DNA of 47,196 nucleotides from Planktotalea frisia. GTDB taxonomy: Bacteria > Pseudomonadota > Alphaproteobacteria > Rhodobacterales > Rhodobacteraceae. Made by a program: the position numbers and the translations under genes. The stretch covers positions 1-47,196 of the forward strand of contig NZ_MLCB01000101.1 of NCBI RefSeq assembly GCF_001890925.1, given 5' to 3'. Below, one piece after another: positions 38,471 through 45,787 of the stretch (the stretch's first letter is position 1; each line of letters begins with the position of its first letter). Under the pieces are notes generated by a model. That model saw only the letters and a program-made list of their open reading frames with translations. It had not been told where the DNA came from and made no database searches.

Positions 38471-38950
38471 ATGGATTTCGCTCCGCTACTAAATGCCCCC
38501 CTTCTTGTTCAATGCCACGTTGTCTTTGCCATGACGGCCCTTGTTTTGGTGCCGGTCATGTTGTTTCGGCGCAAAGGTGATCGTCTGCACAAGATCATCG
38601 GACGGGTTTGGGTCCTTGCCATGGGGTTCACGGCGCTCAGCTCGTTCGGGATTATGGATATTCGCTTGATTGGCCCATTCAGTCCTATCCATGGCCTGTC
38701 GCTGCTTACACTTTATTCACTTGCTGGGGCTGTGATCAATGCGCGCGCGGGCAAGATTGAAGCTCACAAAGGCAACATCCTTGGCGCTATGGGGGGCTTG
38801 GTTGGGGCAGGGGTATTTACTGTGTTGCCGGGCCGCTTGATGTCGCAGATTCTATTTCCTAGTGCTGAAGTGATCGGATTTGTTGCGATTTTGGCTTTGG
38901 GCGTTTTGGGGTTTGTCCTGTGGCGCAATAAATTGAAGCATGCGATTTGA
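38471..38950 (+). CDS. DUF2306-like membrane protein
   Basis: A 159-residue polytopic protein with four transmembrane helices. It resembles DUF2306 proteins: a first helix with an H (VQCHVVFAMTALVLVPVML), RRKGDRLHKIIGRVWV with the conserved H-x2-G-R, an IHGLSLLTLYSLAG helix and EAHKGNILGAMGG. Histidines at matching positions in related families suggest heme or metal binding, but this is not shown. AAGGA stands 8 bases before the ATG. It is probably controlled by the divergent LytTR gene. Function is unknown. Confidence 0.8.
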   Translation: MDFAPLLNAPLLVQCHVVFAMTALVLVPVMLFRRKGDRLHKIIGRVWVLAMGFTALSSFGIMDIRLIGPFSPIHGLSLLTLYSLAGAVINARAGKIEAHKGNILGAMGGLVGAGVFTVLPGRLMSQILFPSAEVIGFVAILALGVLGFVLWRNKLKHAI

Positions 38951-39051
38951 GTGGCTACTCCCGCTTTCGTTCGAGTTTTGCAACATTCGCATCGATTTGC
39001 TCTTGGCATGGGAAAAAGGCTCCACTATACGCCGACGAACTTGCTGGTTTT

Positions 39052-39138
39052 GCGGTCGTGGCGGAATTGGTAGACGCGCAGCGTTGAGGTCGCTGTGAGG
39101 TAACACTCGTGGGGGTTCGAGTCCCCCCGACCGCACCA
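39052..39138 (+). tRNA. tRNA-Leu (GAG)
   Basis: An 87-base tRNA including encoded CCA. Acceptor GCGGTCG pairs with CGACCGC. The anticodon arm is CAGCG-TTGAGGT-CGCTG, giving anticodon GAG (reads CUU/CUC leucine codons). A long variable arm, as expected for leucine, and the T arm GGGGG-TTCGAGT-CCCCC are present. Confidence 0.97.
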
Positions 39139-39268
39139 GCAAGTATATTACCCCTCTTAGCATTTGACTTGAACGGCCCCTTTGAGCGCTGCGTCATTTG
39201 CATTTGTGATTGCATTCCGGGCGGTTCGCCGAGGAAGATTGCACAAATTCACAAGAGGGATCCTTCAT

Positions 39269-40036
39269 ATGACAAATTGGGCAGGCCAAGTGGCCATCGT
39301 TTCCGGCGGCGCTTCTGGGTTAGGGGCGGCGACTGCGAGCCAACTGGCAGCATCAGGTCTTAAACTCGCGCTCTTTGATCTGAACGAAGAGAAAGGCACT
39401 GCGCATGCGGCCGCGCTTGGCGGGATCTTTTGCAAAGTGGACGTCTCTGACCCTGAAAGTGTGAAAGCTGGTATGGCCGCTGTGGTGGCGCAACTGGGCG
39501 CGCCGCGGGTTATGGTGAACTGCGCAGGCATTGGCCTTGCGGGTAAAACCGTGAGTCGCGGTGAGCCGCATGATTTCGGCCTTTTCGACAAAACCATCCG
39601 TATCAATTTGATCGGGTCTTTCAACTGTGCCAGCCAAGCCGCGGCGCTGATGGCTTCACTTGACCCGATGGAACCTGATGGCGCGCGCGGGGTGATCATC
39701 AATACTGCGTCTGTTGCCGCGTATGACGGACAAGTGGGGCAGGTGGCCTATTCTGCATCCAAGGGCGGGATTGTGGGAATGACCCTGCCGATGGCACGGG
39801 ACTTGGCTGATAAGGGCATTCGTGTGTGTTCTGTCGCACCGGGATTGTTTTTGACGCCGCTTTTGGAAAGCTTGCCGCAGGATGTGCAGGACTCGCTCGG
39901 GGCGCAAGTGCCGTTTCCGTCCAGACTTGGCGCACCGGATGAGTTTGCCAAACTCGTCGGGCATATTATTGATAATCCAATGCTCAATGGTGAAGTCATC
40001 CGCCTTGATGGAGCCATTCGAATGGCACCGCGCTAA
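39269..40036 (+). CDS. SDR-family dehydrogenase
   Basis: A 255-residue classical short-chain dehydrogenase. The cofactor loop SGGASGLG is at residues 12-19, NCAGIGLAG follows, INTASVAAYDGQ carries the catalytic serine area and YSASKGG the Tyr-Lys pair. The C-terminal APGLFLTPLLESL and GEVIRLDGAIRM are typical of the 3-hydroxyacyl-CoA dehydrogenase (HSD17B10-like) branch. Substrate is probably a 3-hydroxyacyl-CoA, with NAD. GAGGGA lies 8 bases before the ATG at 39269; a longer reading from 39182 was rejected. It stands alone after the tRNA. Confidence 0.92.
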   Translation: MTNWAGQVAIVSGGASGLGAATASQLAASGLKLALFDLNEEKGTAHAAALGGIFCKVDVSDPESVKAGMAAVVAQLGAPRVMVNCAGIGLAGKTVSRGEPHDFGLFDKTIRINLIGSFNCASQAAALMASLDPMEPDGARGVIINTASVAAYDGQVGQVAYSASKGGIVGMTLPMARDLADKGIRVCSVAPGLFLTPLLESLPQDVQDSLGAQVPFPSRLGAPDEFAKLVGHIIDNPMLNGEVIRLDGAIRMAPR

Positions 40037-40400
40037 ACACCAATCCATACGCAGGCCCCCTCAAACAGGGGGGAGACTGTGCGCATGGGATTTGATTTTT
40101 GAAGCATGAGCTTTTGGTTCTGCCGATGCTCGCTGCGTAAAAGAAGGATAAGACAAGAGATAAGGCTGCGGGGAACGGGTTACGGCGTATTTACAAGAGC
40201 GAAATTTCGGCGCTCTTGCGTTTAGACTGTCCTGATTTGAGTGAGTGGAGGCGTCTGGCTCCGCAGTCTTTGCAAAGCAGATGTTGCGATGCAGAAAGGT
40301 CGCGGTTCCAAATGCCCCAACTATTTGGGCTGCGACCATCCTGCTCGGATAGGGCGCACTTTGCTTGACGATCCCATTGGTAGAAAGACACAAAGTCATT
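40037..40400. other. gene-free spacer with two hairpins
   Basis: No coding region is supported. CCCCCT/AGGGGG (40056-40061 and 40067-40072) right after the SDR stop is a possible terminator without a T-run. CAAGAGCG/CGCTCTTG (40194-40201 and 40211-40218) is a perfect eight-pair hairpin of unknown purpose, standing in the middle of the spacer. No clear promoter was resolved before the sensor-like gene. Confidence 0.6.
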
Positions 40401-41876
40401 ATGAGCATCCGCCAAACTGCATCATTTCAAATCGGCGCTGCGCTTTTGGTGGGGCTTTTATCTACGGTATTCGTGACGTGGCTCGCTATGTCACAACCGT
40501 GGAGCGGACTGACTTTGAGCGTGCCCTCTGACGGCATTGGATTGCTGGTGCAAGTGGATGAAACGGGGCCGAGTGCGGCGTTGCCTAAGGGCGCTCGCTT
40601 GATTGCCATTTCCGCTCAAAACGAACCGCAGAGCGTGACGCTGGAAGCGCTGGACCTAACCGAAGAGCCTGACACGCTGAGCACACCGCAAATCCTTGCG
40701 CGCTTTCTGAAACGTCAACAAACTCTCTTTCATATTTTGAGCCGACCGACTGTTTCGCTGTCATACCAAACTGTACAGGGCACACTGGAAACGATCACAA
40801 TCCAACCTTTGCCCCTGCGTCCGCTTGCTGAGCTACCGATTCTATTCTGGCTTCATTTGTGCGCTGGCGTGGTTTCCTTGGTATTGGCTGCTTGGGTTGC
40901 GCTTCAACGAAGCTCTGATCCCGCTGGGCGCATTGCTTTTGCGATGGCTTGCGCCGGACTATGGCTCGTGACGCATGGTGCAGCACTTTATGCAACGCGT
41001 GAATTGGCGCTGAACGTCGCACAATTCAAAACGGCGTCTGCGATCAACTATATTGGCAGTTTTGTCGGTGGCATCGGACTTGTGAACCTGTTTCTAGTAT
41101 GCCCCACGCGTATCGCGCGCCCTTGGCAGCTTTGGATTGCGCCGCTGCTCATAGTTCCCATCGCCTTGCTCAGCCTCGCAAATCTCGACGGGTTTGAAGT
41201 GTCACGACAAGTGACCGTTATGATCGTGGTCTTGGCATTCGTCGCTTTGGTGATCGTTCAAACGATCAAGTGTTGGCGCGATCCGGTCGCGCGTGCGGTG
41301 ATGACATGGCTTGGCATCGCTGTGATCATTTGCTCAGTGGTTTATGTCGTCGCGATCATCATTCCAGCGCTCACAGGCCAAGACCAAAAGATCACTCAAG
41401 GCCCTGCACTTGTCATTATTTTGGTGTTCTACATCGCACTCGGCGTCGCGGTTGCACGGTATCGGCTCTACGCACTGCCGGATCTGTCGATGCGCCTGCT
41501 GTTTTATGTGGGTGGGTTGGTGCCTTTGCTGCTGTTGGATGCGGGTTTGATTTATCTGTTGTCCTTTGAGGCAGCCCCTGCGCTGGGCCTATCGCTTGCG
41601 CTAGTTGGGTTGTTCTATTTGCCACTGCGCGCGCGCATGTTCACTTGGTTTGGTCGCAACAAGACGCCGCCACCAGAAGAGGTGTTCAAACGCATCAATG
41701 AGGTGGTTTTGGCGACAGATCACATCGCGCGGCGCGGCGCGTTTGAAGCATTATTTCAATGGTTGTTCGCACCGATGCAAATCAGAGCAGCACCTGCACC
41801 TGTCGCCAATGCGCAGCTGATCGGCAATGGTGAAGCACTACGCGGATTTGCAATCCGGAAAGTTTCTCTGATTTAA
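40401..41876 (+). CDS. PDZ-like/multi-TM sensor protein, probably truncated
   Basis: A 491-residue protein. After one helix (residues 9-31), residues about 35-135 form a periplasmic PDZ-like region (PSDGIGLLVQVDETGPSAALPKGARLIAI). Then about eight to nine membrane helices follow (about 145-425, including NYIGSFVGGIGLVNLFLVCPTRI and GVAVARYRLYALPDL). The layout is that of the N-terminal half of membrane sensor histidine kinases, in which a GAF or ATPase half should follow. Here the chain stops soon after the NEVVLATDHIARRG stretch, at a run of changed character (ALRGFAIRKVSLI), just where the accessory island begins. I infer a gene cut by insertion or deletion, and the last 15 or so residues may be read from foreign DNA. 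No ribosome site is clear. Confidence 0.7.
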   Translation: MSIRQTASFQIGAALLVGLLSTVFVTWLAMSQPWSGLTLSVPSDGIGLLVQVDETGPSAALPKGARLIAISAQNEPQSVTLEALDLTEEPDTLSTPQILARFLKRQQTLFHILSRPTVSLSYQTVQGTLETITIQPLPLRPLAELPILFWLHLCAGVVSLVLAAWVALQRSSDPAGRIAFAMACAGLWLVTHGAALYATRELALNVAQFKTASAINYIGSFVGGIGLVNLFLVCPTRIARPWQLWIAPLLIVPIALLSLANLDGFEVSRQVTVMIVVLAFVALVIVQTIKCWRDPVARAVMTWLGIAVIICSVVYVVAIIIPALTGQDQKITQGPALVIILVFYIALGVAVARYRLYALPDLSMRLLFYVGGLVPLLLLDAGLIYLLSFEAAPALGLSLALVGLFYLPLRARMFTWFGRNKTPPPEEVFKRINEVVLATDHIARRGAFEALFQWLFAPMQIRAAPAPVANAQLIGNGEALRGFAIRKVSLI

Positions 41877-41946
41877 TAGGGAAAAATTGTAAACGGACTT
41901 GTTTCGTTCACGGCCACTTTTCAATGGGTTACGAGGCCGAGGTAAA

Positions 41947-41981
41947 CGGTTTTTCGCAGGTCAAAAGGCAAAGAAAAACCG
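41947..41981. repeat. inverted repeat at island edge
   Basis: CGGTTTTTC (41947-41955) and GAAAAACCG (41973-41981) are perfect nine-base arms around a 17-base centre. They stand in a 205-base spacer (41877-42081) at the likely boundary between core and island. The spacer also holds two copies of GTAAACGG-like sequence (about 41889 and 41942). It may be a bidirectional terminator or an end or attachment element. Confidence 0.5.
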
Positions 41982-42081
41982 CTGAGGGGGCGGCCACCCA
42001 CCTCAACGGCATAGAAGAATTTTTCTACCCTCATCATTACGCGAATTTCGGCCTGACCTCAAGCCAATTGGCGGTGCAATT

Positions 42082-42945
42082 ATGAGTTGGCGTATCGCAA
42101 ATGAATGCGCAGAACGTCGCTTTGGCAGCGCCGCGCGCAAACAGATCATCATGTTCCTGGCTGATAAGGCCAGCGATGACGGCTCTGGCATCTGGTGCTC
42201 CAAAGGAACGATCCAGCGCCACACAGAGCTTAGCGAGAGCACAGTGAAACGCACGATCATTGACTTCCTGCAGGAAGGCATTTTGATCGAGACAGGGCGG
42301 CGGCATTGCAAGAACGGCTACACCGTCATTTACCGCATTGTTCTCGAACGTGTGGCTTCGATGGAAACCACTGCGGAACCCGATATCGTGACGGGGGTCA
42401 CTGTGAACCCCGTCCAGCCTGAACCCGGTACGGGGTCCACGGTGGCCGGGGTACGGGGTTCACGGTGGACCCCAAACCATCCTAAAACCATCCATAAACC
42501 ACCTACGCGCAGGCGCGAGGCGGCGGCGGAGGTTGAAGATCTTAAATCTGAGAAGATCCTAGCCGCCTATCCTCAGGACAGGATCCGAGACAGACGGACC
42601 TGCCTGTGCCAGATTGCAGTTGCTGTGAACGCAGGCGTTGCGCCCGATGACCTGCTGAAAGCAGTCAAAACCTATGCTGCTGAGACCGAAGGTTACACGC
42701 GCAGTAAGATCTGTTTCTCGGACAATTGGTTCAAGATGCGCCGTTGGGAGAAGGGGCTTGCCCAGATACAAGCCGATCGCGAAAAGGCGCGAGAGGCCGA
42801 AGTCAACGGCCGTACCCGGCTCGCCAGCTGGATCCATGAGCGTCATCCCATGTGCCGCCATATCACCAACCGGCAGATTGAGGATTTGATCTCTGTAAAG
42901 CTCGTGACGCCTGAGAAGGTCCGCGCGGCGGGGCTGCGGGCGTGA
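42082..42945 (+). CDS. phage-type helix-turn-helix replication protein (lambda O-like layout)
   Basis: A 287-residue protein. Residues 1-95 form a winged helix-turn-helix (ANECAERRFGSAARKQIIM, SKGTIQRHTELSESTVKRTIIDFLQEGIL). A proline- and glycine-rich linker, about residues 100-150, is followed by a C-terminal basic region (ILAAYPQDRIRDRRTCLCQI, FSDNWFKMRRWEKGL). This order matches HTH proteins found beside replication genes in prophages and integrated plasmids of alphaproteobacteria. The linker DNA contains palindromic direct repeats (42391-42473), as the lambda origin lies within gene O. GGCGG is 7 bases before the ATG. No helicase loader or primase is next to it. Function is inferred. Confidence 0.7.
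   Translation: MSWRIANECAERRFGSAARKQIIMFLADKASDDGSGIWCSKGTIQRHTELSESTVKRTIIDFLQEGILIETGRRHCKNGYTVIYRIVLERVASMETTAEPDIVTGVTVNPVQPEPGTGSTVAGVRGSRWTPNHPKTIHKPPTRRREAAAEVEDLKSEKILAAYPQDRIRDRRTCLCQIAVAVNAGVAPDDLLKAVKTYAAETEGYTRSKICFSDNWFKMRRWEKGLAQIQADREKAREAEVNGRTRLASWIHERHPMCRHITNRQIEDLISVKLVTPEKVRAAGLRA
42391..42473. repeat. three palindromic repeats inside the replication-protein gene
   Basis: Copy I (42393-42411) and copy III (42455-42473) are 19-base near-palindromes with GGGGTYCAC-like arms around a single base, each with one mismatch. Copy II (42432-42450) keeps the left arm and half of the right. The 19-mer GGTACGGGGTYCACGGTGG occurs at 42427-42445 and 42450-42468, 18 of 19 bases identical and 23 bases apart. 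Centres are at 42402, 42441 and 42464. They encode part of the Pro/Gly linker and look like iterons. Confidence 0.75.
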
Positions 42946-42978
42946 GAGTTGTGGCTCAATTTAAGATAAGGCTGTTGT

Positions 42979-43009
42979 TATCTCAGAAACTGCATTGTTT
43001 TCTGAGATA
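42979..43009. repeat. 11-bp hairpin downstream of replication gene
   Basis: TATCTCAGAAA (42979-42989) and TTTCTGAGATA (42999-43009) are perfect arms around a nine-base loop, 34 bases after the gene end. There is no T-run behind it, so it may be an operator, an mRNA end or an element of the island. Confidence 0.6.
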
Positions 43010-43125: not shown

Positions 43126-43377
43126 ATGAAGCATCTCGTTCGCACGTCAAAAAATTTGGGCCACGCAATTCGCGAGGCTCGGAAGGCCAAGAACCTGACC
43201 CAGAAGGAGCTCGCCTCGATGAGCGGTGTCTGGCAGGAGACGATCTCTAAGATCGAGAACGGCAGCGGTGGCACCAAGCTAGAAACGCTATTTGATTTGG
43301 TCGCGGCCCTGGACCTAGAGATCACGGTGACCGAGCGCAGCAAGGGTGCATCAGACGGGCTTGAGGATATATTCTGA
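43126..43377 (+). CDS. hipB: HipB-like antitoxin and repressor
   Basis: An 83-residue Xre-type regulator. The helix-turn-helix runs about residues 14-65 (LGHAIREARKAKNLTQKELASMSG, then ETISKIENGSGGTKLETLFDL in part), followed by a short strand-like end (DLEITVTERS) as in HipB, which pairs in the dimer. It would repress its operon and neutralise HipA. AGGAG stands 7 bases before the ATG at 43126; an earlier in-frame start inside the operators was rejected. hipA begins one base after the stop. The three upstream operators indicate autorepression. Confidence 0.92.
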   Translation: MKHLVRTSKNLGHAIREARKAKNLTQKELASMSGVWQETISKIENGSGGTKLETLFDLVAALDLEITVTERSKGASDGLEDIF

Positions 43378-43378
43378 C

Positions 43379-44680
43379 ATGGGTCGCAAGCGCAGCTATA
43401 CGCCACTGAACGTCTTTCTTAACTCGCGGCTCGTGGGTCAATTGGTGCGCGAGTCCTCAGGCGGAGTCAGTTTCGCCTATGCACGAGATTGGCTCAACTG
43501 GGAGCACCGGATGCCAGTCTCGTTGTCGTTGCCGTTACAGGAAAACCGCTACAGCGGCGCACCTGTGATGGCCGTCTTTGACAACCTGTTGCCCGATAGT
43601 GATGTCATCCGCCGAAGGGTCGCGGAACGAGTTGGGGCCGAGGGCGTAGATGCCTTCAGTTTGCTGTCACAAATTGGACGCGACTGTGTTGGAGCGCTTC
43701 AGTTTCTACCCGATGGGCAAGAGCCTCAACCGATGTCTGAGTTGACTGGGGAACCTGTTGACGAGGCTCAGATCAGAGCAATCTTGAGCGACCTCGATCT
43801 CGCGCCTCTTGGTATTCGCCGCGAGAATGACTTCCGAATTTCTGTAGCTGGCGCACAGGAAAAAACGGCACTTCTTCGCAAAGACGGCCAGTGGATTGAG
43901 CCAACCGGCACAACGCCAACCACCCACATCATCAAGCCACAAATCGGCAGACTGCCCAACGGAATGGACCTGTCCGACAGTGTTGAAAATGAGTACTTGT
44001 GCCTCAAGATAATGGAGGCGTTTGGGCTTCGAGTTGCGAATGTCGAGATGGCGAAATTTGGCGAAAAGAAAGCCTTGGTTGTTGAACGTTTTGATCGGCG
44101 CTGGACGTCAGATGGCCGCTTGATCCGTCTGCCGCAGGAAGATTGCTGCCAAGCGCTATCTGTTGTGCCCACGCAAAAGTACCAGAACGAAGGCGGCCCA
44201 GGTATCTCGGACATCATGGAACTCGTGTTGGGGAGCGACGATCCCAACAAAGACCGGTACGATTTTTTCAAAGCCAACGTCCTGTTCTGGCTGCTTGGCG
44301 CGACGGACGGGCATGGCAAGAATTTTAGCGTCAGTCTGTTGCCCGGAGGGCGTTTTCACATGACGCCGCTTTACGACGTTTTGACGGTCCAGCCGACAGT
44401 CGACGCGCGGCAGATAGAGCGAAAATATTTCAAGCTCGCTATGAATTTCGGCAACTCGAACCATTACAAGGTGGCGAATATCGTGGGCCGCCACATCGTG
44501 GAGACCGGAGTTCAATCAGGCTTATCCCGCGCAGTCGTACAGGGCCTGTTCGAAGAACTGCAGGAGACCTCGCACGCGATCGTTGAGGCCACGTTCAACC
44601 AGCTTCCAGAGGGTTTCCCAGAGGCGTTGTTGGGCTCGATCGACGGCGCGTTGAAAGCAAGATTGCACCTGTTGATTTGA
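43379..44680 (+). CDS. hipA: HipA-family serine/threonine kinase toxin
   Basis: A 433-residue full-length HipA kinase. The N-terminal lobe has LNVFLNSRLVGQLVRE and LPLQENRYSGAPVMAVFDNLLPD. The ATP-binding and autophosphorylation loop is SVAGAQEKTALL, VVERFDR follows, the catalytic aspartate lies in GATDGHGKNFSV, and the metal aspartate in PLYDVLTV. All active-site elements are intact, so the kinase should work. E. coli HipA phosphorylates glutamyl-tRNA synthetase and slows growth; the target here is unknown. It forms a two-gene unit with hipB. Downstream is a spacer of 269 bases. Confidence 0.95.
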   Translation: MGRKRSYTPLNVFLNSRLVGQLVRESSGGVSFAYARDWLNWEHRMPVSLSLPLQENRYSGAPVMAVFDNLLPDSDVIRRRVAERVGAEGVDAFSLLSQIGRDCVGALQFLPDGQEPQPMSELTGEPVDEAQIRAILSDLDLAPLGIRRENDFRISVAGAQEKTALLRKDGQWIEPTGTTPTTHIIKPQIGRLPNGMDLSDSVENEYLCLKIMEAFGLRVANVEMAKFGEKKALVVERFDRRWTSDGRLIRLPQEDCCQALSVVPTQKYQNEGGPGISDIMELVLGSDDPNKDRYDFFKANVLFWLLGATDGHGKNFSVSLLPGGRFHMTPLYDVLTVQPTVDARQIERKYFKLAMNFGNSNHYKVANIVGRHIVETGVQSGLSRAVVQGLFEELQETSHAIVEATFNQLPEGFPEALLGSIDGALKARLHLLI

Positions 44681-44949: not shown

Positions 44950-45147
44950 ATGGCTACTCAAACACTGAAACTGAACGTCAAATCCGGTGAAAAAGACGGC
45001 AAGAACTTCTGGGACCGCTGCGGTGTCCTCTTCGTCAACACAGATGACACCGGCAACATCACGTCGATCAACGTCAAACATTGCATGTTCCCGGACGTAG
45101 AAATGGTCGCCTTCCCACGCCGCGACAACGATCCGGTCACCGAGTGA
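44950..45147 (+). CDS. 65-residue island protein of unknown function
   Basis: A small acidic to neutral protein: MATQTLKLNVKSGEKDGKNF, then WDRCGVLFVNTDDTGNI and VKHCMFPDVEMVAFPRRDND. The alternating strand pattern suggests a small beta-barrel, perhaps OB-like, but no family is recognised. A purine-rich GAGG site stands 9 bases before the ATG, the frame is free of rare breaks, and a GC hairpin follows the stop, all supporting a real gene. It stands alone between hipA and the AlbA_2-like fragment. Confidence 0.7.
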   Translation: MATQTLKLNVKSGEKDGKNFWDRCGVLFVNTDDTGNITSINVKHCMFPDVEMVAFPRRDNDPVTE

Positions 45148-45223: not shown

Positions 45224-45787
45224 TCAGAACCGTCCCCTATTCCACTCATGCTCTTCTGCACGAGAAAGGGGCTGAGATGATCCTTCCTTACGGACAAAGA
45301 ACTCTTCCTTACCTTCCGAAGTTACATAAACGGGTTTGTTCGCCCGTGCGACCTGAACATTACAGATCTGCTTGTCGTCATAGCTGGGCCAATCGAGCTT
45401 CCAGAGCTTCATCACATCCTTGCCAAGATACTTGTCGAAGATATTGGCCAGATGGAGCTGAAAACCGTCCCGATCTTTTTTTGAAAAGGTGCCGTAGTCG
45501 AGTTCGAGACCAATGGCATTGCCATGGTCATCCACGCCGATAAAGAGGCTTCCGCCGTCAGAATTCATGAATGCTGCAACTGTCTTGGCGACCACATGTT
45601 CAAGTTTCTTGTTCACTTCGCCTGTGCGCATGTCGTATCTCAGGGTGGATTTGAACTCAATCCAGCCGCCGCGAAGGAGTACGAAGACCTGATCCGTCAA
45701 GATTTTGAAACTGCGATAAATACTTTTTTGATTGTCATGGCGTTGTTGTCCCTTGGGTACGAAAGTTGGATACAACAATAACGACAA
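45224..45787 (-). pseudogene. AlbA_2/Schlafen-type DNA-binding domain, probably 5'-truncated
   Basis: The frame codes for about 145 residues of a typical AlbA_2 (divergent AAA-4/Schlafen-like) domain: WIEFKSTLRYD, HVVAKTVAAFMNSDGGSLFIGVDDHGNAIG (in parts), RDGFQLHLANIFDKYLG and EEFFVRKEGSSQPLSRAE. The N-terminal portion before EFKST shows no known pattern and lacks an ATG or GTG with a ribosome site; only TTG codons are available. It may be the remnant of a longer protein, such as a nuclease or ATPase of a defence or mobile element. If TTG is used, it could be a complete single-domain protein. Confidence 0.6.

Follow-up and report, generated by a model that had tools for sequence, protein, structure and literature searches.

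In phage lambda, the replication origin, ori-lambda, is located within gene O (PMC6022878), and the O protein binds four 19-bp iterons (PMC3985674). A comparable placement has been described for the P1 RepL/oriL system, in which the origin is thought to lie within the initiator gene and RepL-mediated amplification suffers when an A/T-rich stretch of repL is changed synonymously (PMC9948254). The Paracoccus plasmids pAES7, pMARC3, and pMOS2 encode HTH_36-type Rep proteins and carry two iteron-like repeats each, and 15-bp repeats are described for pAES1 (PMC3832669). A review of IMEs notes elements with replisome organizers and toxin-antitoxin systems and points out that studies of replication in excised IMEs were lacking (PMC5704250); for all these systems, we follow the excerpts of the cited sources that were available. 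Our literature search, which covered few subscription-journal papers, returned no description of the initiator family presented here or of origin-cassette exchange.

This study concerns a stretch of 47,196 nucleotides from Planktotalea frisia, hereafter the window, with a particular emphasis on the rep gene located near its right end (Table 1). We consider it very likely that this gene belongs to an integrative element and encodes its lambda-O-like replication initiator, and that the DNA encoding the disordered linker of the protein is the element's origin. The initial annotation had ascribed to the gene exactly the plan of lambda O. What the two share is the position of the repeats inside the initiator gene (in lambda, iterons at 39034-39118 in a gene at 38686-39585) and a similar relative place, about 36-45% along the window gene and about 39-48% along lambda O. 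They differ in other respects: direct comparison detected no sequence homology to lambda O, the window has two and a half dyads at spacings of 39 (site 1 to 2) and 23 (site 2 to 3), and no lambda P-like helicase-loader gene adjoins rep, the next genes being those of HipB and HipA, the toxin-antitoxin cargo of an integrative element. By analogy, the window family would work like lambda O/ori without being homologous to lambda O, with binding of the repeats and replication as its predicted activities.

The remaining systems are likewise similar in part. P1 RepL also has a presumed origin within the initiator gene, where synonymous changes matter, whereas the A/T-rich region is the critical part there, and the two systems are likened by description, not by sequence (PMC9948254, available excerpt). 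The Paracoccus Rep proteins are HTH-domain initiators in Alphaproteobacteria as well, but their predicted origins, in the available part of the source, lie outside the rep gene or touch just its start codon (pAES7) (PMC3832669); the window protein matches HTH_36 only below the cut-off and is set apart from them by these descriptions. The element family resembles IMEs in its tRNA attachment site and toxin-antitoxin cargo, and some relatives carry a tyrosine integrase, a relaxase, or a MobC-like protein; it differs in that two mobilisation genes, the MobC-like gene and the relaxase of the clade B type, were sought in 58 loci of clade A, to which the window belongs, and in the window, and neither was found.

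Table 1. Features of the rep region, in coordinates of the window.
Feature	Position	Strand	Basis
Host membrane-protein gene (sensor-like), read as cut short by the element	40398..41876	+	Longer relatives
Left attachment core GCGGATTTGCAATCCG, sharing the anticodon-loop core GGATTTGCAATCC with tRNA-Cys of relatives	41842..41857	+	Comparison with relatives
Conserved hairpin followed by a T-run, candidate antisense-RNA terminator	41979..42009	-	Conservation only
Candidate minus-strand promoter TTGAGG-17-TAATGA for an antisense RNA	42034..42062	-	Conserved columns, putative
Replication initiator (O-like), 287 aa	42082..42945	+	PHROG matches, AlphaFold model
N-terminal winged-helix domain coding (residues 3-92), presumed dyad-binding part	42088..42357	+	AlphaFold model, structure search
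Predicted embedded origin, very low synonymous variation	42391..42540	+	Codons 104-153, comparative
Dyad 1, GGGGGTCACTGTGAACCCC	42393..42411		Pairing at 8/9 positions, comparative table, shuffles
Site 2, half-complete dyad, GGGGTCCACGGTGGCCGGG	42432..42450		Repeat search, comparative table
Dyad 3, GGGGTTCACGGTGGACCCC	42455..42473		Pairing at 8/9 positions, comparative table, shuffles
A-rich tract with AAACCATC repeats, presumed unwinding element	42474..42504	+	61% A+T vs 42% in the gene
CGCGCAGGCGCG hairpin 3' of the A-rich tract, suggestive only	42506..42517		Window copy p 0.41, not significant
Helical C-domain coding, common to subfamilies with different N-domains	42541..42942	+	AlphaFold model, block identities, C-domain tree
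HipB-like antitoxin	43126..43377	+	HTH_3 9.4e-15
HipA toxin	43379..44680	+	HipA_C 5.9e-51

Results

Architecture and relatives of the initiator

The rep gene has the extent first described. Its PHROG matches include phrog_270 (1.8e-14) and phrog_1032 (2.8e-12), both phage replication-initiation families, and phrog_391, labelled 'O-like' (4.4e-10). Pfam matches were found below cut-off only, to HTH_36 (E 0.0046) and Phage_rep_O (PF04492; E 0.099, 13.6 bits against a cut-off of 28.7), and neither a Rep_3 nor a RepC domain matched the initiator up to E 1. At E 1e-5, a phage collection of 50,697 records gave zero matches and two plasmid records were matched by the window protein, while four loci with initiator relatives were found in IMG/VR. 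The sequence search of PDB returned two matches, with E of 0.69 and 0.99.

In the AlphaFold model (input alignment of 26 sequences; mean pLDDT 72.7, pTM 0.36), a winged HTH domain at residues 3-92 is followed by a disordered segment at 99-152 (pLDDT <50) and a helical part at 154-282, which bears out the earlier proposal of an N-terminal winged HTH, a linker with dyads in its DNA, and a C-terminal region. A structure search of PDB gave nothing at E 0.001 or less; the best matches of the N-domain are winged-HTH regulators, several of them MarR-like. The search of BFVD gave 101 matches, and among the matches listed most are phage HTH proteins with low TM-scores.

Repeats in the linker DNA

Three related dyads had been proposed in the linker. 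Dyads 1 and 3 stand; site 2 is not a full dyad, its outer three positions being G opposite G, with just six inner pairs possible. The near-identical 19-mers reported 23 bases apart (GGTACGGGGTYCACGGTGG, at 42427 and 42450) were recovered as such, with 18 of 19 positions identical, a value reached in none of 300 synonymous shuffles. A pair of dyads of the quality of 1 and 3 arose in 5/300 such shuffles, and the plain count of strong palindromes in the window gene, 1, was matched by 7/60 and is not striking. The decisive evidence for the linker repeats is comparative, drawn from alignments of related genes, and not the single-gene palindrome count. The A-rich tract adjoining dyad 3 is spanned by a G-free stretch (42469-42506), and no exact match to the DnaA box consensus was found in 41801-43000.

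A GC hairpin after the A-rich tract is seen in many subfamilies. It was rejected as a firm feature, since only 6 of 23 representatives reach p 0.05 or less against synonymous choice; because the combined p of 8e-7 counts each related gene as an independent observation, we keep the hairpin as suggestive.

Synonymous constraint and the dyad code

Of 295 genomes from the same family, 73, counting the window's own, have a match to the gene at E 0.001, as do three of six from the same genus. This patchy distribution is as expected of a mobile gene; some relatives are broken or partial. In the first clade A set of 17 distinct genes, 3/42 usable linker codons vary synonymously, compared with 170/223 outside the linker (Fisher 9e-18). 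The corresponding values are 10/39 and 218/226 for a larger clade A set of 56 distinct genes (from the window, a locus on a viral contig, and other clade A loci, with L158 dropped for its length and identical genes merged) and 6/39 and 154/173 for 13 genes of a clade about 64% identical. From the 17- and 13-gene sets, genes <270 aa were left out and identical genes were merged; the codon counts come from related genes and are not independent events. The low synonymous variation runs from codon 104 to about codon 153, past the dyads and through the A-rich tract. The linker bounds were set after the first alignment, and unbiased sliding windows pick the same stretch.

The dyads are described by 59 distinct linkers taken from 82 loci (L102 and L180 being without the anchor, and L177, the outlier for dyad 1 in which the first site is deleted, being included). 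In dyad 1, a single base pair prevails at each of positions 1-4 and 7-9, occurring in 55-58 of the 59 linkers, position 6 is T-A in 28, C-G in 23, and another combination in 8, and the centre is T in 27, A in 24, G in 5, and C in 3. The paired change at position 6 keeps the dyad symmetric despite altering two amino acids. Within the dyads, the freest third positions are those of codons 107 and 120, and these form the centres of site 1 and site 2. These linkers were taken at a fixed length of 87 bases, so their equal length is uninformative, and the position of the anchor after dyad 3 is the valid check of spacing; it falls in the same codon in 81/82 loci. In the remaining locus, L177, 39 bp are missing, exactly the distance from site 1 to site 2; this in-frame loss of a repeat unit leaves two sites.

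Homologous linkers, then, retain the repeats, with nearly fixed dyad bases and the synonymous constraint at the DNA level that the initial annotation had proposed as a test, and these results support its reading of the segment as a putative embedded origin. At the protein level, the linker is conserved at 0.983, compared with 0.971 and 0.940 for the folded parts, although it is disordered in the model. The disordered middle of the protein appears to be spelled by the DNA signal and not chosen for the protein, so this conservation should not be read as a sign of protein function.

Constraint acting at the RNA level, through hairpins in the rep transcript or an antisense RNA spanning the linker, would draw on palindromes able to form hairpins, and synonymous constraint alone does not separate DNA from RNA. 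However, positions 7-9, which flank the centre and would lie within or next to a tight loop, hardly vary, whereas the centre itself varies freely, and site 2, unable to form a full hairpin, is about as conserved as the full dyads. Fixed letters rather than exchange of pairs argue for sequence recognition, and we regard an RNA-level cause as very unlikely.

Outside these clades, the divergent initiator L061 carries a linker array of GGGGTGAAGGAGATTCACCCC palindromes, with five strong palindromes in the gene compared with a shuffle mean of 0.42 (0/60 shuffles). Given this array, the embedded-origin plan may extend beyond the present clades.

Search for a regulon

If the protein were a self-controlling transcription regulator and the dyads an operator within its gene (roadblock autoregulation, without an origin), the regulator-like matches of the N-domain would be accounted for, and the dyads would suit a dimeric regulator. 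The dyad pattern GGGGTYCACNGTGRACCCC was searched in six whole genomes, with the backward pattern as control. All matches with 0-1 mismatches lie inside the initiator gene; a set of good genomic sites elsewhere, which the initial annotation had named as evidence for a regulator, did not appear in the six genomes. With up to three mismatches, matches outside the gene and backward controls numbered about 5 and 4 (G000), 3 and 6 (G013), 7 and 5 (G049, two of whose places outside the gene have two mismatches), 3 and 4 (G045), and 4 and 2 (G094), while weaker matches in G188 exceeded the control, at about 15-17 compared with 3. With good sites only within the initiator gene and weaker ones near the control in 5/6 genomes, the regulon reading was rejected. 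A regulator also fits poorly with constraint that continues past the dyads, via the A-rich tract, to about 42540, with the position of the gene at the att end of mobile elements, and with PHROG matches to replication initiators; we consider it improbable.

Probable exchange of N-domains together with their dyads

Two further subfamilies have N-domains without significant BLASTP similarity to that of the window and a related C-domain; one of them occurs twice in the window's own assembly (L036 on C148 and L037 on C159). Comparison of L036 with L092 gave 73-100% identity in most 30-column blocks past the linker, with one late block at 60%, compared with 0-50% in blocks before the linker and 60-70% in the transition block(s). 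The switch point between the N- and C-parts lies just 3' of the A-rich tract. At the same gene position, the linkers of the other subfamilies carry different palindromes, GTCTCA...TGAGAC and TTTGCCC...GGGCAAA, and are constrained as well: synonymous variation affects 5/35 linker codons and 138/214 others in one subfamily (four genes; N-domain 74/101, C-domain 64/113), and 7/45 and 126/195 in the other (seven genes; N-domain 49/91, C-domain 77/104). N-type and dyad type thus co-occur.

On a C-domain tree of 47 rows (L084 dropped for lack of the anchor, identical C-domains merged), the three N-types together need six changes, the minimum possible being two, which indicates that the N-domain and dyads moved together; the well-supported branches force only two changes for each of two N-types and one for the third, each type taken singly. 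L052 has its C-domain in another clade, yet its dyads are those of its own N-type, so the dyads go with the N-domain. From the co-occurrence of N-type and dyad type, we predict that the N-domain recognises the origin, which would be swapped as a cassette.

Swapping of N-domains near the linker, together with the loss of one repeat unit in L177, might instead point to a linker that has no function today, a recombination hotspot whose uniformity comes from gene conversion between elements. Such uniformity is at odds with three linker types that are each constrained and with freest third positions, in the window type, that coincide with the dyad centres, and we give this explanation hardly any credence compared with a functional origin.

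In L036, L049, L050, L055, and L074, the upstream gene, which we take to be serC-like, is perhaps another attachment site.

The leader and a possible antisense RNA

Two leader types occur between att and rep, and both conserve a minus-strand hairpin with a T-run and a TTG[AC]G-N16/17-TA motif. In the second type, found in L105 and others, the conserved hairpin at that place is a different one, and in L152-L154 one stem pair is altered on both sides (A-T to G-C). A plain scan of the leader region found two terminator-like sites compared with 1.0 expected from shuffles, and a consensus scan of the region reported no minus-strand promoter. On the basis of this conservation, the rep leader may be the target of a short antisense RNA serving in copy control.

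The integrative element and its attachment sites

In 55 of the 58 clade A loci, the 3' half of a tRNA-Cys gene, cut at the anticodon core GGATTTGCAATCC, lies just upstream of rep; the other three are L130 (only 136 bases upstream available), L157, and L158. The same place in 22 clade B loci holds tRNA-Arg (15), a tRNA-Phe-like core (6), or neither (1). Five clade A loci have an intact tRNA-Cys 7-10 kb downstream, which we read as the other element end; the loci extend only about 10 kb, and longer elements would escape. Just before this far-end tRNA-Cys, a tyrosine integrase is encoded in three of the five (L107, L113, and L117, with Pfam matches for the integrases of L113 and L117), and four of the five encode HipA. 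At a distance of 0.5-6.5 kb downstream, HipA with at least 30% identity recurs in 31/58 clade A and 14/22 clade B loci. In clade B, 17/22 loci encode a MobC-like HTH protein (the label is ours; Pfam gives HTH matches only) and 5/22 a relaxase (PF03432). The earlier suggestion that the island with HipBA belongs to a mobile element agrees with a tRNA-targeting integrative element of this kind.

The window's tRNA-Cys is intact elsewhere in the assembly, and what precedes the attachment core is instead a membrane-protein gene, which ends at that point. The frames of eleven relatives of the membrane protein span 709-855 aa, one of them being broken by an internal stop. Nine match the window protein up to its residues 478-486 and two lose the match earlier; in seven examined further, 251-267 aa continue past the match. 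We interpret this arrangement as integration into a secondary site, which would have interrupted a host membrane-protein gene. Only 5.1 kb of the contig lie beyond the rep start, and it stops short of the right end of the element. The integrase and right end of the element and the missing C-terminal part of the host gene were sought in the window's own assembly and not found; a kinase on C132 (32% identity), considered as that C-terminal part, and an integrase on C36 (25% identity, beside tRNA-Met), considered as that of the element, were taken as other loci.

Downstream of HipA, a 65-aa frame at 44950-45147 has no Pfam match, and many clade A loci share its sequence downstream of rep, a conservation seen at the DNA level only; a Schlafen AlbA_2 domain protein (6e-17) is encoded at 45224-45787 (minus strand) within the presumed cargo. 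Two initiator copies lie about 14-24 kb apart on one contig in the pairs L109/L135 and L144/L147, which suggests stacked elements. In L071, L079, L137, and L138, integrase genes lie just outside the left att, upstream of rep, as expected for tandem elements. The 4.6-kb contig of L153 (coverage 342) was considered as a free replicon and rejected: its ends have no direct overlap and, on visual inspection, repeat each other in inverted orientation, as expected of a contig flanked by IS copies, and it is therefore not evidence for a plasmid. No terminal overlap indicating circularity was found at ten other loci, among which L044, only part of a contig, is uninformative.

Discussion

On evolutionary grounds, an origin embedded in the initiator gene is strongly supported by the comparison of related sequences. 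In the mechanism that we propose, the element would be excised by its integrase, after which the winged-helix N-domain, probably as dimers, would bind the dyads GGGGTYCAC-N-GTGRACCCC inside its own gene. The resulting protein-DNA complex would open the adjoining A-rich tract, and the C-domain would recruit the host helicase machinery, loading of the helicase and replication being the predicted outcome.

We further lean, less firmly, towards viewing these initiators as two-part proteins. An origin cassette, comprising the winged HTH, its own dyads, and the A-rich tract in one frame, would be swapped onto a shared helicase-recruiting C-domain, and the linker would be a by-product of the DNA signal. 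Each swap would change replication specificity, and perhaps incompatibility, in one step.

If the embedded-origin reading is true, the lambda O/ori plan would be extended from phages to widespread small chromosomal elements of marine bacteria, in which the amino acids of a disordered linker would be set by a DNA signal. The family would offer a natural series of domain-and-origin swaps for testing recognition, and the 150-bp predicted origin could serve as a Rhodobacterales replicon.
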